From: Gemmatimonadota bacterium
GTDB taxonomy: Bacteria; JAAXHH01
DNA: 64,000 bases
Assembly (NCBI GenBank): GCA_009837395.1
Contig: VXTP01000046.1
Location: 1-64,000 of the forward strand
Reading direction: 5' to 3'
The translations under genes were made by a program, and so were the position numbers. Shown here in pieces: positions 56,157-61,761 of this stretch (positions are counted from its first letter, which is position 1; each line of letters opens with the position of its first letter). The notes beneath the pieces are model-generated. The model was not told the DNA's origin. It saw only the letters and a list, made by a program, of their open reading frames with translations, and ran no database searches.

Positions 56157-56927
56157 TTACCCGGTCCGCCCGGTCCGCCCGGTCCGCCCGGTCCGCCCGG
56201 TCTGCCCGGTCCGCCCGATCCGCCCGTCCGACTTGGCCCGTCCGGTCCGCCTGGCCGCCGACCACGCCGCGCGCAGCGTGGAAGGCGCAAGGAAGAACCG
56301 GATGAAGGGAAGGAACAGGGTGACGGGAATGACACGGATCTCGCCCCGGCCATCCAGCTCGAATACCGCCTCGTCGAAATCGGGTTCGACCCGCAGCCGC
56401 ACGCGCTCGGCGCCGTGGAGGAATCCGGTAAAGGCGCAGAAAGTACCCCAGAGGCGGCCCGTGTCACAGGGATTGTCCAGTCCGAAACGGCCCGCGACAT
56501 GCAGGGACACGAATCGAACGCACCTGGCCATGTCACGCAGGAACCTCAGCACGCACCGGACAAATCCCCTCGTCTTCAGTACCCGGCGCAAGCGTTCCAC
56601 CGGAGCACGTTTTCCGTCGGCCTTACGGTCGGCCGAAGTGCGCGCGGACGGGGCCTCCGGTCCGCCTGGTTCGTCTGCTTCACCTGATTCGGCCGACTCG
56701 GCCGCCGCACGGGCCGGACGCCTGCGCTTTCGCTTTCGACGGGCGCCGGTCGATAGGGAAGGACTGACGCGGAGCAGGCCGAACAGCCACCCGAACGTGA
56801 TCCTGCCCGAGAAGTCCTCCCTGCGAACGACCGAGAAGGAGATCGTCACGGGAATCGCCAGGAGCATCAGCACCGAAAGCAGGACGGCGACCGGTATGAG
56901 CAGATAGAGTTCGAAGTTCGGAATCAA
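56157..56927 (-). CDS. DUF2953 domain-containing membrane protein with (RTG)n C-terminal tail
   Basis: MIPNFELYLLIPVAVLLSVLMLLAIPVTISFSVV, RVEPDFDEAVFELDGRGEIRV; tail GRIGRTGQTGRTGRTGRTGRTG from a 9-bp repeat. Confidence 0.7.
   Translation of the reverse strand: MIPNFELYLLIPVAVLLSVLMLLAIPVTISFSVVRREDFSGRITFGWLFGLLRVSPSLSTGARRKRKRRRPARAAAESAESGEADEPGGPEAPSARTSADRKADGKRAPVERLRRVLKTRGFVRCVLRFLRDMARCVRFVSLHVAGRFGLDNPCDTGRLWGTFCAFTGFLHGAERVRLRVEPDFDEAVFELDGRGEIRVIPVTLFLPFIRFFLAPSTLRAAWSAARRTGRAKSDGRIGRTGQTGRTGRTGRTGRTG
56163..56225. repeat. 9-bp tandem repeat GGTCCGCCC, 7 units
   Basis: Seven units from 56163 (five exact, plus GGTCTGCCC and GATCCGCCC). Confidence 0.95.
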
Positions 56928-57350: not shown

Positions 57351-58061
57351 TCAGTCGCCCCACAGTTCCTCGAGGCGGCGGTCACGGCCGCAGTTGTACC
57401 GGTAGAACTTGTACCGCAACGGGTTCTTGATGTAGTAATCCTGATGGTATTCTTCGGCCCGGTAAAACGTCGACGCGGGGGTGACCTCGGTCACCACGCG
57501 GTCGAACCGGCCGGAATCGATGATCTTCTGCCTGGATGCCTCGGCCAGCGCTTTCTGCTCGGCGTCGTGATAGAAGACCCCGGCGCGGTACTGGTTGCCC
57601 CTGTCACAGAACTGACGGTCGTCCACCGTGGGATCGATGTTCACCCAGAAGACGTCCAGCAGTTCCTGGTAGGTAATCTTCGACGGGTCGTAACGGACCT
57701 CCATGGCTTCGGTGTGTCCCGTACGGCCGGTGGTTACCTGCCCGTAAGTGGGATTTGGCGTTGTCCCGCCGATATAACCCGCGATGGTCGAAATGACGCC
57801 ATCCAATTCGTCGTAGGGCGGCTCCATGCACCAGAAACAGCCCCCGGCAAAGGTCGCCAGCGCGATCTCACCGGTCTGCCTGGTCTGCTCGGTCGCCAGC
57901 GCGATTTCTCCGGTCTGCCCGGTCTGCCCGGTCTGCCCGGTCTGCCTGGTCTCGCCGGATCGCGGTGCGGGCTCGCCGCCGGGCCGGGCCACGGTGTACA
58001 TGGTTAAGGCTAAAAGTGCAGCGATGAGCGCGATCGGCAGGACACGCTTCGCATTGAACAT
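57351..58061 (-). CDS. msrA: Peptide-methionine (S)-S-oxide reductase MsrA with N-terminal anchor and QTG-repeat linker
   Basis: ATFAGGCFWCMEPPY, GYIGGTTPNPTYGQVTTGRTGHTEAMEVRYDP; N-terminal TM. Confidence 0.95.
   Translation of the reverse strand: MFNAKRVLPIALIAALLALTMYTVARPGGEPAPRSGETRQTGQTGQTGQTGEIALATEQTRQTGEIALATFAGGCFWCMEPPYDELDGVISTIAGYIGGTTPNPTYGQVTTGRTGHTEAMEVRYDPSKITYQELLDVFWVNIDPTVDDRQFCDRGNQYRAGVFYHDAEQKALAEASRQKIIDSGRFDRVVTEVTPASTFYRAEEYHQDYYIKNPLRYKFYRYNCGRDRRLEELWGD
57874..57956. repeat. 39-bp duplication and 9-bp tandem repeats (GGTCTGCCC) in msrA linker
   Basis: gtcgccagcgcgat recurs 39 bp apart just before this array; ggtctgccc units at 57912, 57921, 57930, 57939 (cct variant). 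Confidence 0.9.
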
Positions 58062-58113: not shown

Positions 58114-61100
58114 CTAGCCGAACAGGCTCAACTGGTCCGTCGGTTTGGACTTGGCTTTTTTGCGCTGGCGCCGTTTCGGTTTCTGCGTACTGTCGTACTG
58201 CTTCAACTGTTCTTCAATGTCGGTCAGGAAGGGTGACGGCCGGGTGGAACGCACCTCCCCGAACAGCATGCGCTTCCCGGACCGAACCAGGTAAAGCCGT
58301 TCTTTCGCCCGGGTCATGGCCACGTAGAACAGGCGGCGCTCCTCGTCCACGTCCGCCGCCTCACCGCCGTGTTGCAGGGGCACCAGCCCGTCTTCGCACC
58401 CCACGACGAAGACGACCGGGAATTCGAGCCCCTTGGCCGCGTGCAGAGTCATGAGGTTAACATGCTCCGACGCTTCGCCGAAAGCGTCGTATTCCTGGCT
58501 GAGCAGCAGCTTGTCGAGCATGACCGGCAATTCCGTTTCGATTCGGGCGTACCGGGTGAGCTCGCGAAGGCTGTCATCCGCCCTGGGATAACGCCACTTC
58601 AGCTTGTCCCAGATGGATGAGCGCGCCAGGTTCTCCAATATATGGGCTGCCGTCCGCTTCTCCAGGTCCGAATTGATCGTCTTCAGGTCGCTCAACAGGG
58701 CTTCCACGCCGTTCCTGGATCGCTTCATGAGCAGGCGGGGGTGATCCATCAGTTCCGCCACGTGGTCGATCGTGATCTGGTTGCGTTTTTTCCAGAGTTC
58801 CTCGATGAGTTCCACGGTCCGGTCCCCCAGCCCGTCGATCGTCGAAGACAGGCACCGCAGCGCCGAGCCGGTGGTGACGGTCCGTCCGTCGCCCAGTTGA
58901 AGCAGGGTAACGATCTCCTGCACGCCCGGCCGGTTGATGAGGGACGTATCCCCTGCTACGTGGTACGGTATTCCGCTGCGTTCAAAGGCTGCCACCAGGG
59001 CGGTATTCTGACTGTTCACCCGGTACAGTACGGCGATGTCGCCGAAGGATCGCTCCTCGCCCGGGTCCGCCCCGTGTTCCAACCGTCCCGAGTCCTGGGA
59101 GAAATGGCTGGTGCCGCCCACCATGCGTTCGATCTGGTGCACGACGTACTCGGCTTCGGCACGGTCCGACCGGGTCTCCCGGATGACCAGGCGTCCCTGG
59201 ACGTAGAGCGCGGCGACCGGCGGTGGCGCCGTCGAAGGGCCGGAAGCGCGCACGACCTGGGACGAGGCGTCGAGCAAGGTAGCCGCGGAACGGTAGTTCT
59301 CGCTGAGGTACCGAACCTCCGCCCCGGGGAAGTCTTCCTCGAAAGAGTGGAAGTAACGGGTGTCCGCTCCGCGAAAACCATAGATCGCCTGGTTGGGATC
59401 ACCGATGGCGGTCATCCGCGCGCCGCCTTCCACCAGGATCTTCAGCAGGTCGTGCTGGGCCGGATTGATGTCCTGATACTCGTCCACGAAAATGTGGTGG
59501 TACCGCTCGTACACACTCTGCCGGAACCGTTCGTCCGACCTCAGGAGCTTCGTGGTTTCCAGGATGACATCGTCAAAATCAAGGAGCCCGTGCCGTCGCA
59601 GGAGCCGGGTGTATGCCGAGACCGCTTCCGGGATTTCACCGCTGCGGCCCGACGCCTTCCATCGGGCGACCTCCTCCAGCCGCGTCCTTCGTTGCACGGC
59701 GTTGTCCAGCGGCCATTGCGCGCGGGCCAGCCGGTCCTGGTCGTCGGGCGTTGCCACGCTCAGGCTGAAGGGGATGCTCGCGTGGCGAGACCACTGGCGC
59801 ATCAGGGCGAGACAGATCCCGTGGAAGGTGCCGACCATGGCGTTCGTGCCGCCCATGTCGTCCTGCCCGTCAAGCAGTGCGCCCAGTCGCGCCTTCAGCT
59901 CCCCGGCGGCCTTGTTGGTAAAGGTCACGGCCAGCATGCGGCCGGGCGTGGTTTCGTGACGCGCCAGGTAGGCCATGCGGTGGGTCAGCGTGTGGGTCTT
60001 TCCGGTACCGGGCCCCGCCACGATGAGCAGGTGTCCTTCGCTGTGTGTTACGGCCTTCTGCTGATCTTCATTGAGCGGACCGCCCATCGAGGTCGCGTCT
60101 TCCGAAGCTTCATGCGCTTCCAGGACGGTCACGGATGGTGCGGTTTCGTGAGGCGTCGCGGAAGGGCCGGTCACGTCCGGGGCTGACTCTACCAGGCCCG
60201 TTCCGTCCGGGGCTGTCTCTACCGGGTCCGACACGTCCGGGGCTGTCTCTACCGGGTCCGCGGCCGTCGTCGTCTTCGAAACGGCCGGCACCGGAAACTC
60301 GACGTCGGCCTTCCCGACCGCGACGTCGGCCTTCCCGACCGCGATGCCGGCCTTCCCGTTGGTGCTTGCCGGGGACGCTTCCTCCACTTCCGGCGTGTCG
60401 ATCTCCCTCACCTCCGGCGTATCGTCCGGTACGGGATCCGCACGAACCGGCTTCTTCTCCTTCACGGGAAGATCTTCAAGCAGGGCGATCTGCGTGTCGG
60501 CTCCCAGCCGGTCTTCCGGGTTGAACAACTTGATCACCCCGTAGTCTCCGTCATACCCCGGAAGGATATCCACCTCTCCGACGCGCATGCGGCGAATGCC
60601 CTCGGCGATCAGGGCACCGCCGACCTGCGCGATGTCGTCTTCCGGTATGTCCAGGAGGATGTCGAGTTCGCTGCCCAGACGCGAGACCATGGCCTGGTAA
60701 ACCGTGTCCACCGTCTTGGTTCCGGGTCCGACCTGTTTCGCCTCGCCGATGATCTCGGGCAGGGGTATCACGCTGAAAAAGTGGCGTGAGCGGGGAGGCT
60801 TCTTCCCCTCTTTGCGGTCTGCAAGCTCCTCCACGCGGGCCATGACCCCCACGGTCACGGGCTTGCCGCAATCCGGACACAGGCCCTTTGCGTCGATCGT
60901 TTCCCTCGGGTGCATCCTTCTTTCGCATTTCCTGTGCCCGTCAAAGTGGTACTTGCCCTCTTCGGGATAGAACTCCACTGTCCCGGTCAGTCCTTCGTCT
61001 TCCGGATCGGACAGGGCGCTGTAGATCGCGGGATAGTCGCATGACGTATCGAACAGGGTGGTTTCCCGGCCCAGCTTTCCGGGCGAATGGGCGTCGGAGT

Positions 61101-61761
61101 TCGATACGAGCACGTAGGGGTCGAGCTGCTCCAGCCGCCAGTTCATGAGCGGATCGGACGACAGGCCGGTTTCGACGGCGAAGATGTGCTCGGTAAGGTC
61201 GCCGTAACAGTCCGATATCCGGTCGAATCCTCCCCGGGATCCCAGGGCCGAGAACCAGGGCGTCCAGACGTGGGCGGGGATGAGGCAGGCCATCGGGTCG
61301 GTCTCGAGGGTGATCTCCAGCAGGTCCCTCGAGTCCAGTCCCAGGATGGGCCGTCCGTCCGATCGGATATTGCCGATGGCGCCCAGGCGGGCCTGCAGGG
61401 TTTTGGCGGCCTCGAATCCGGGCGCCAGGATGATGTTGTGTACTTTTCGCACGCGGCCGAGCCGCTTGTAGATGTTCGATATCTCGACCGTCAGCATGAA
61501 ACGGACCGGCGCACGGCAGGCGGCCGGCACCTGGCCGTCCATCGTCCTCTCGAACTCGGGCTTCAGCCGGAACAGGCCCTCCTCGGCCGGTTGCAGTTTC
61601 TCCTCCAGCTCATCCATCCAGCCCGGGTGTACGAAATCCCCGGTGCCCACCACCCGGATGCCCTTCAGCTGGGCCCACTTGTACAGGTGCTCCAGGTCCA
61701 GGTTCTTGCTGGTCGCTCTCGAGTAATGGGAGTGGAGATGCAGATCGGCGTGGAAGGGCAA
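58114..61761 (-). CDS. Endonuclease Q (PHP)-UvrD/Rep-type helicase fusion with C-terminal QLSLFG clamp-like motif
   Basis: N-terminal HADLHLHSHYSRATSKNLDLEHL...VGTGDFVHPGW...VSNSDAHSPGK and C-x-C/CPDC zinc-finger region (EndoQ/TIGR00375-like); then LNEDQQKAVTH...VAGPGTGKTHTLTHR, HIFVDEYQDINPAQ, LMTLHAAKGLEFPVVFVVG, RRLFYVAMTRAKERL (SF1A helicase motifs); C-terminus TDQLSLFG. Confidence 0.9.
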   Translation of the reverse strand: MPFHADLHLHSHYSRATSKNLDLEHLYKWAQLKGIRVVGTGDFVHPGWMDELEEKLQPAEEGLFRLKPEFERTMDGQVPAACRAPVRFMLTVEISNIYKRLGRVRKVHNIILAPGFEAAKTLQARLGAIGNIRSDGRPILGLDSRDLLEITLETDPMACLIPAHVWTPWFSALGSRGGFDRISDCYGDLTEHIFAVETGLSSDPLMNWRLEQLDPYVLVSNSDAHSPGKLGRETTLFDTSCDYPAIYSALSDPEDEGLTGTVEFYPEEGKYHFDGHRKCERRMHPRETIDAKGLCPDCGKPVTVGVMARVEELADRKEGKKPPRSRHFFSVIPLPEIIGEAKQVGPGTKTVDTVYQAMVSRLGSELDILLDIPEDDIAQVGGALIAEGIRRMRVGEVDILPGYDGDYGVIKLFNPEDRLGADTQIALLEDLPVKEKKPVRADPVPDDTPEVREIDTPEVEEASPASTNGKAGIAVGKADVAVGKADVEFPVPAVSKTTTAADPVETAPDVSDPVETAPDGTGLVESAPDVTGPSATPHETAPSVTVLEAHEASEDATSMGGPLNEDQQKAVTHSEGHLLIVAGPGTGKTHTLTHRMAYLARHETTPGRMLAVTFTNKAAGELKARLGALLDGQDDMGGTNAMVGTFHGICLALMRQWSRHASIPFSLSVATPDDQDRLARAQWPLDNAVQRRTRLEEVARWKASGRSGEIPEAVSAYTRLLRRHGLLDFDDVILETTKLLRSDERFRQSVYERYHHIFVDEYQDINPAQHDLLKILVEGGARMTAIGDPNQAIYGFRGADTRYFHSFEEDFPGAEVRYLSENYRSAATLLDASSQVVRASGPSTAPPPVAALYVQGRLVIRETRSDRAEAEYVVHQIERMVGGTSHFSQDSGRLEHGADPGEERSFGDIAVLYRVNSQNTALVAAFERSGIPYHVAGDTSLINRPGVQEIVTLLQLGDGRTVTTGSALRCLSSTIDGLGDRTVELIEELWKKRNQITIDHVAELMDHPRLLMKRSRNGVEALLSDLKTINSDLEKRTAAHILENLARSSIWDKLKWRYPRADDSLRELTRYARIETELPVMLDKLLLSQEYDAFGEASEHVNLMTLHAAKGLEFPVVFVVGCEDGLVPLQHGGEAADVDEERRLFYVAMTRAKERLYLVRSGKRMLFGEVRSTRPSPFLTDIEEQLKQYDSTQKPKRRQRKKAKSKPTDQLSLFG
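60172..60261. repeat. 30-bp tandem repeat x3 in EndoQ-UvrD linker
   Basis: Units 60172-60201, 60202-60231, 60232-60261; encodes DPVETAPDVS-type repeats. Confidence 0.9.
60301..60363. repeat. 21-bp tandem repeat x3 in EndoQ-UvrD linker
   Basis: gacgtcggccttcccgaccgc at 60301 and 60322, diverged third copy at 60343; encodes AVGKADV repeats. Confidence 0.9.

Follow-up and report, generated by a model that had tools for sequence, protein, structure and literature searches.

The window analysed here is a stretch of 64,000 nucleotides (positions 1 to 64,000 of contig VXTP01000046.1, assembly GCA_009837395.1, deposited as a Gemmatimonadota bacterium). It carries on its minus strand a gene for a fusion protein of 1215 residues, in which an Endonuclease Q (EndoQ) module is followed by a UvrD/PcrA/Rep-like helicase of superfamily 1A (SF1A) and a putative beta-clamp-binding peptide at the C terminus. 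Judged from its sequence, the fusion is probably a chromosomal, glycosylase-independent initiator of repair at deaminated bases (uracil, hypoxanthine and xanthine) and at abasic sites. This reading is based on the domain content, on the catalytic residues and clamp peptides that have been kept, on the finding that its two halves are inherited together or lie adjacent, and on the selection acting on the folded parts. The first-pass annotation of this DNA had proposed that nicking, unwinding and clamp recruitment are combined in one chain. The three parts proved to be real and to hold their functional residues, and their coupling is supported by relatives in which the two halves lie side by side as split genes.

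The open reading frame (ORF) that the annotation had placed at 58114-61761 was recovered and could be assigned to the minus strand, no strand having been named before. The sequence motifs quoted there and the terminal TDQLSLFG were all found in the protein. In relatives, the in-frame start at the equivalent place is TTG or ATG. The gene and its parts are as follows.

58114..61761, minus strand: whole gene of the EndoQ-UvrD fusion, 1215 residues, TTG start at 61761, stop at 58114-58116, frame unbroken
60523..61761, minus strand: Endonuclease Q module, residues 1-413, PHP fold (TIGR00375, PfuEndoQ 5zb8/7k30, conserved residues, AlphaFold)
60868..60936, minus strand: putative EndoQ zinc-binding segment, residues 276-298, with H276, C279, C295 and C298 (alignment)
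60478..60492, minus strand: internal clamp-binding-like peptide QIALL, residues 424-428 (motif conserved in position among the fusions)
60082..60477, minus strand: disordered, fast-evolving linker, residues 429-560 (repeats, substitution ratios, model confidence)
58222..60081, minus strand: UvrD/PcrA/Rep-like SF1A helicase, residues 561-1180 (Pfam, NCBIfam, fold, motifs)
58120..58134, minus strand: putative C-terminal beta-clamp-binding pentapeptide QLSLF, residues 1210-1214, in a basic disordered tail (motif conservation)

The EndoQ and helicase modules

Residues 5-410 aligned with the whole of the NCBIfam model TIGR00375 (E 4e-51, 174.5 bits), and residues 4-420 matched the solved PfuEndoQ chains (E 1e-47; 3e-49 with the domain alone), which bears out the EndoQ identity proposed for residues 1-410. 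The score of 174.5 bits does not reach the equivalog cut-off of TIGR00375 (326.6 bits), and the window protein is not filed under this equivalog. Among 148 Desulfobacterota genomes, not one passed the same cut-off, even with free EndoQ counted in; of three control genomes (B. subtilis, M. jannaschii and M. acetivorans), all of which match the model, one also fell below it. Because free EndoQs and a control genome fall short as well, the cut-off is no mark of activity.

The AlphaFold model of the EndoQ module has a predicted local distance difference test (pLDDT) score of 94.9. When this model was searched against the PDB by fold, PfuEndoQ (5zb8) and its complex with dU-containing DNA (7k30) came out on top, with template modelling (TM) scores of 0.82-0.89 and a best E of 7.6e-38, and other PHP proteins ranked far behind.

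The catalytic and pocket residues are those given in a review (PMC8307549), placed here by alignment. In PfuEndoQ, activity is lost upon E76A, H84A or H139A substitution, and H139, G169 and S171 sterically bar thymine and adenine from the pocket (PMC8307549). PfuEndoQ E76, H84, H139, G169 and S171 align with E93, H108, H164, G199 and S201 of the window protein, all five of which are kept in 89/89 relatives. The metal ligands of the window protein are H8, H10, D42, E93, H108, H164, E197, D223 and H225, and its selectivity residues are H164, G199 and S201; H10, D42, E197, D223 and H225 are likewise kept in every one of the 89 relatives, and H8 in 87. The metal and base-recognition residues of EndoQ are thus present on alignment to PfuEndoQ, and invariant or nearly so. 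Therefore, from the kept residues and the confident PfuEndoQ-like model, we see no sign of a dead EndoQ domain.

The 'Cys-rich zinc finger' of the first-pass annotation stood in part. Three Cys are present, and the first ligand is His276 (60934-60936), not Cys, so that the segment reads HCCC against CCCC in PfuEndoQ; His276 is a possible ligand. Among the bacterial relatives, His occupies position 276 in 87/89, and the three remaining Cys are found in 89/89.

A complete UvrD/Rep helicase of the SF1A type had also been claimed, and this was confirmed by Pfam matches to UvrD-helicase (residues 563-812, E 2e-63) and UvrD_C (residues 819-1159, E 2e-43), together with the presence of all SF1A motifs (GPGTGKT, DEYQD, GDPNQAIYGFRG, ENYRS, LHAAKGLEF and VAMTRAK). 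Among 74 fusions of full length, 70-74 retain these motifs, and the folds closest to the helicase half are UvrD-DNA complexes (TMt about 0.8). Helicases of this family translocate in the 3'-to-5' direction.

The helicase half scored far below the equivalog cut-offs for PcrA (383 of 911 bits), Rep (322 of 951) and UvrD (320 of 1144), which points to a separate helicase subfamily. In a helicase tree, rooted at the midpoint only, canonical PcrA/UvrD-type rows and one operon helicase (L141, see below) grouped together with a Shimodaira-Hasegawa-like approximate likelihood ratio (SH-aLRT) of 97, and the fused forms stood apart. UvrD/PcrA-type matches occurred in 21/21 sampled genomes, and a canonical PcrA is encoded separately from the fusion in the window's genome. 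We rejected the idea that the fusion replaces UvrD/PcrA, as a separate canonical PcrA is found in the window's genome and in most sampled carriers.

Within the genus, the ratio of nonsynonymous to synonymous substitution was about 0.05-0.09 for EndoQ, 0.11-0.15 for the helicase and about 0.43-0.68 for the linker, indicating that both folded parts are under selection. The linker contains two in-frame minisatellites, at 60172-60260 (30 bp x 3.0) and 60300-60358 (21 bp x 2.8), and close relatives differ in its length. When a close orthologue was modelled at full length, both its linker (423-495) and its C-terminal tail (1127-1150) came out disordered, with linker pLDDT below 50, as expected of regions that carry linear motifs.

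Clamp peptides, distribution and split versions

We searched the last 15 residues for a relaxed clamp motif, Q-x-x-[LMI]-[FLI]. It was found in 87/92 intact fusions, compared with 13/1566 other ORFs and 2.2% of shuffled tails; the strict form Q[LM][SD]LF ends 23/92 fusions. The Gln of the motif is invariant across an alignment of 45 proteins. Conservation of QLSLF in orthologues had been named beforehand as a refuting test, and the peptide turned out to be kept, in the relaxed form, across about 13 phyla. The relaxed motif also ends 23/29 EndoQ proteins with no helicase in the same ORF, and only 1/18 sampled non-fused helicases, the single case coming from Omnitrophota and being of the partner type.

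A second, internal clamp-like peptide, Q-x-x-[LM]-[FLI], was found in 59/101 fusions against 2.2% of shuffled sequences. It lies 7 residues into the region that was scanned C-terminally of the EndoQ domain, at the site where free EndoQ ends in its own clamp peptide, and reads QIALL in the window and QTSLF in two other Latescibacterota genera. Read most simply, these sequences derive from a fusion of two clamp-binding proteins in which both peptides were retained. Neither the internal peptide nor the breadth of the family was in the first-pass annotation.

The fusion was present in 15/16 Latescibacterota genomes, covering four of five genera, and the exception is an assembly that is 83% complete. 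The nearest named relative, among the matches listed, is a Candidatus Latescibacterota metagenome-assembled genome, 93% over EndoQ, and the window is accordingly assigned to that phylum. An alignment search of GTDB with the EndoQ part confirmed at least 576 relatives among at least 592 candidate stretches, of which the best 80 were kept. Most of these 80 are fusions, about 970-1180 residues long unless cut by a contig end, and their record titles name Latescibacterota, KSB1, Fibrobacterota, Chloroflexota, Thermodesulfobacteriota, Myxococcota, Binatota, Gemmatimonadota, Actinomycetota, Planctomycetota, Elusimicrobiota, Pseudomonadota and Bacteroidota. Because the same domain order recurs in 15/16 Latescibacterota and in most of the best 80 GTDB relatives, the fusion is not a product of chance. 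An assembly artefact or a one-off fusion was also rejected, since the gene recurs in many genomes, including isolates, namely Desulfonema magnum (complete chromosome) and Micromonospora.

In an even sample of 148 Desulfobacterota genomes, 42 carried the fusion, 60 a free EndoQ and 2 a cut version, and 44 were without EndoQ. The fusion was rare in even samples of Actinomycetota (3/199) and Pseudomonadota (8-9/199 by open-frame length), the centre being included in both. No relative of the fusion was found among the viral contigs and phage records searched, and none of the plasmid records searched gave a match covering 80%; on these searches, a mobile or phage origin was rejected.

In a few genomes, EndoQ and UvrD are encoded by adjacent genes: L045 (7992-10904) and L047 (7971-10953) from Omnitrophota, L056 (50-3534), and L141 (3485-6791) from Desulfobacterota. 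Both products end in a clamp peptide in L045 (QLTLF and QMTLF), L047 (QLTLF and QLKLF) and L141 (QLSLF and QMKLF). In L056, the helicase peptide is terminal and the EndoQ peptide, QKTLF, is internal. The EndoQ tree, rooted on archaeal EndoQ by a very long branch and thus to be taken with caution, placed the 80 fused rows together with 4 from operons and 6 solo ones in a single group (SH-aLRT 96), while separate solo forms fell outside it. Within this group, L141 is basal and the Omnitrophota splits are nested, so the latter look like later fissions. The partner helicases of Omnitrophota (L045 9366-10904, L047 9271-10953 and L183) are only 503-561 residues long, far smaller than canonical UvrD.

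Proposed repair route and alternative explanations

We propose the following order of events, in which the substrates, the incision side, the helicase polarity, the clamp binding and the order of steps are inferred. The EndoQ module would flip the damaged nucleotide into its pocket and cut 5' of it, so that the nick has a 3'-OH and a downstream strand that carries the lesion at its 5' edge. The UvrD module, expected to move 3' to 5', would then load on the intact strand at the nick; its motor would travel in the 5'-to-3' direction of the nicked strand and so displace the lesion-bearing strand as a 5' flap. Meanwhile, the peptide at the C terminus, together with the one after EndoQ in many members, may keep the protein attached to DnaN, which would allow Pol I or Pol III to extend the 3'-OH, after which the flap would be trimmed and the nick ligated.

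The paper that described the discovery of EndoQ proposed two routes after incision, namely strand displacement, or a second cut by endonuclease V (EndoV) followed by removal through an unnamed helicase (PMC4357722). The second route (Figure 10 there) resembles our proposal in placing a helicase step after EndoQ incision, and the fusion would supply a name for that helicase; EndoV, however, is missing in the Latescibacterota surveyed. Strand displacement from a single nick is therefore the more likely course. As the fusion is kept across about 13 phyla and has side-by-side split versions, this step is directly testable.

In archaea, PCNA stimulates EndoQ by way of a C-terminal PCNA-interacting peptide (PIP) box, and Shiraishi et al. 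had already pointed out bacterial EndoQ homologues with a clamp-motif consensus (PMC4858679). The fusion is predicted to share with this Thermococcales EndoQ-PCNA repair a damage-nicking enzyme held on the sliding clamp by a short terminal peptide. It differs in having a DnaN-type peptide, two peptides in many members and a helicase in the chain. Compared with Endonuclease Q in general (PF1551/TK0887, M. acetivorans and Bacillus; 5zb8, 7k30), the fusion has the same fold, the same metal ligands and residues of the pocket and a putative zinc segment at the same place, and its clamp peptide follows the domain as in free EndoQ (PMC4858679), but it has gained a helicase, His for the first zinc Cys and a further clamp peptide ending the helicase, and scores below the cut-off. 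With UvrD/PcrA/Rep enzymes (2is6, 1pjr, 4c2t), it has all helicase motifs and the overall fold in common; it differs in its sub-cut-off scores, in a basic tail with QLSLF in place of the usual PcrA end, and in coexisting with a separate PcrA in the same genome. No description of an EndoQ-UvrD fusion was found in the literature searched, which included few subscription papers. The parts as such are known; what appears to be undescribed is their combination, how widely it occurs, the pairing of the peptides and the split operons.

The first-pass annotation had further suggested that the fusion could bypass uracil-DNA glycosylase (UDG). As a general rule this did not hold. A member of the UDG superfamily was present in each of the 16 Latescibacterota and in 44 of the 45 further genomes that carry the fusion, and we rejected the fusion as a general UDG replacement. 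EndoV was found in 0/16 Latescibacterota. Of the 148 Desulfobacterota genomes, seven lacked UDG, and six of these kept the fusion and had no EndoV either (loci L161, L194-L197 and L162; genomes G208, G102, G136, G162, G186 and G192, one of them nearly single-contig). Lack of UDG thus occurred in 6/42 fused genomes against 1/106 others (Fisher p 0.002, uncorrected for kinship). On the EndoQ tree, the six genomes form a clade of five plus one separate, that is, two lineages; the last version of this tree omits L198-L203 (6/15 later loci), in which a simple motif search gave no EndoQ ORF. The association with UDG lack is significant only before kinship is allowed for. Taken together, most carriers have in the fusion an additional route for uracil. 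For hypoxanthine it may be the main route in those that have no EndoV, and two Desulfobacterota lineages have it as a candidate for the sole starter.

The absence of EndoV from the Latescibacterota, and the six Desulfobacterota genomes that keep the fusion with neither UDG nor EndoV, speak for a need for such an initiator; other observations weigh against this reading. With UDG present in nearly all carriers of the fusion, a further pathway for uracil is usually redundant, and the association with UDG lack shrinks to two lineages on the tree. EndoV accompanied the fusion in 13/42 genomes, compared with 22/44 of those without EndoQ (p 0.08, uncorrected for kinship), and an anticorrelation between the fusion and EndoV was set aside as a weak trend only. 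Neither the EndoQ half nor the helicase half attains its NCBI equivalog cut-off. Finally, the internal motif of the window, QIALL, is weak, and such a motif is not recognisable in about 40% of fusions.

One alternative is a replication-associated processing of other lesions, in which abasic (AP) sites, oxidised pyrimidines or blocked ends at stalled forks are the main substrates, the helicase is chiefly a fork-restart motor and deaminated bases are a side activity. PfuEndoQ indeed cuts AP sites and some oxidised pyrimidines as well (PMC8307549), uracil is already handled by UDG in nearly all hosts, and clamp tethering suits a fork role. A relaxed choice of lesions, however, would not need the residues that exclude thymine and adenine and admit uracil and hypoxanthine, which are invariant, and EndoV is missing from all 16 Latescibacterota surveyed; we consider this explanation unlikely. 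The two halves might also lack mechanistic coupling, the fusion serving only to co-express and tether them, with EndoQ nicking and the UvrD half working in nucleotide excision or mismatch repair. The long, disordered, fast-evolving linker (pLDDT below 50) and the split genes of some lineages would fit such an arrangement. It is nevertheless very improbable: UvrD/PcrA-type matches are already present in 21/21 sampled genomes and a separate canonical PcrA in that of the window, the helicase tree puts the fused helicases outside the canonical group, and random pairing would not hold the same partners together across about 13 phyla.

A role in defence was considered too, as the fusion might nick and unwind invading phage DNA containing uracil or unusual bases, in the manner of Gabija, in which a UvrD-like helicase is paired with a nuclease. 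A possible antiviral role of Bacillus EndoQ, which is insensitive to Ugi, has been raised in a review (PMC8307549), and PADLOC models of GajB matched the helicase half (best 3e-87). But GajB is itself UvrD-like, PcrA fits the helicase half better (3e-114), and no PADLOC model matches the EndoQ half, which stands where Gabija has GajA. The fusion is a conserved chromosomal gene, retained in 15/16 Latescibacterota and close to dnaN and gyrB in nine deltaproteobacterial loci; its typed neighbours in the window offer no GajA and no defence context, and the searches of viral, phage and plasmid records were negative as given above. Such a role is distinctly unlikely.

The initiation of repair at deaminated and abasic sites is thus the reading that we prefer. 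A wider claim would be that there is a widespread bacterial glycosylase-free deamination pathway, in which one protein nicks, peels and bridges the clamp by two peptides and is the only known starter in some lineages without UDG and EndoV; we put this forward tentatively, as a possibility on the doubtful side. EndoQ with a clamp motif is common in some bacterial groups (fused in 15/16 Latescibacterota; 42 fused and 60 free among the 148 Desulfobacterota), and in the lineages without UDG and EndoV the role of the fusion could be read in mutation spectra. EndoQ is reportedly already used in a deamination assay, and a nick-and-peel version could therefore be of practical use.

Gene neighbourhood

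The neighbours typed in the window encode an AcrB-type transporter, MsrA, YtfJ, a DUF2953 protein, an IlvD/Edd dehydratase and PhyH, and nothing repair-related, no GajA and no defence gene was seen among them. In nine deltaproteobacterial loci (L058, L060, L063, L081, L082, L085, L087, L091 and L107), dnaN lies at a distance of 0.5-3.4 kb from the fusion and is divergently oriented, and all nine also share the gyrB cluster; the proximity of dnaN counts in favour of the proposed clamp tethering. Beyond dnaN and gyrB in these loci, no recurrent gene neighbours were found across phyla. Some of the dnaN-linked loci have small uncharacterised proteins between the fusion and dnaN.

Near the fusion gene in the window, arrays of 9-bp units (CCCGGTCCG / CCGGTCTGC) occupy 56160-56259 and 57852-57958, at the ends of neighbouring genes. 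They encode runs of Thr-Gly-Gln and Thr-Gly-Arg in MsrA and the DUF2953 protein.

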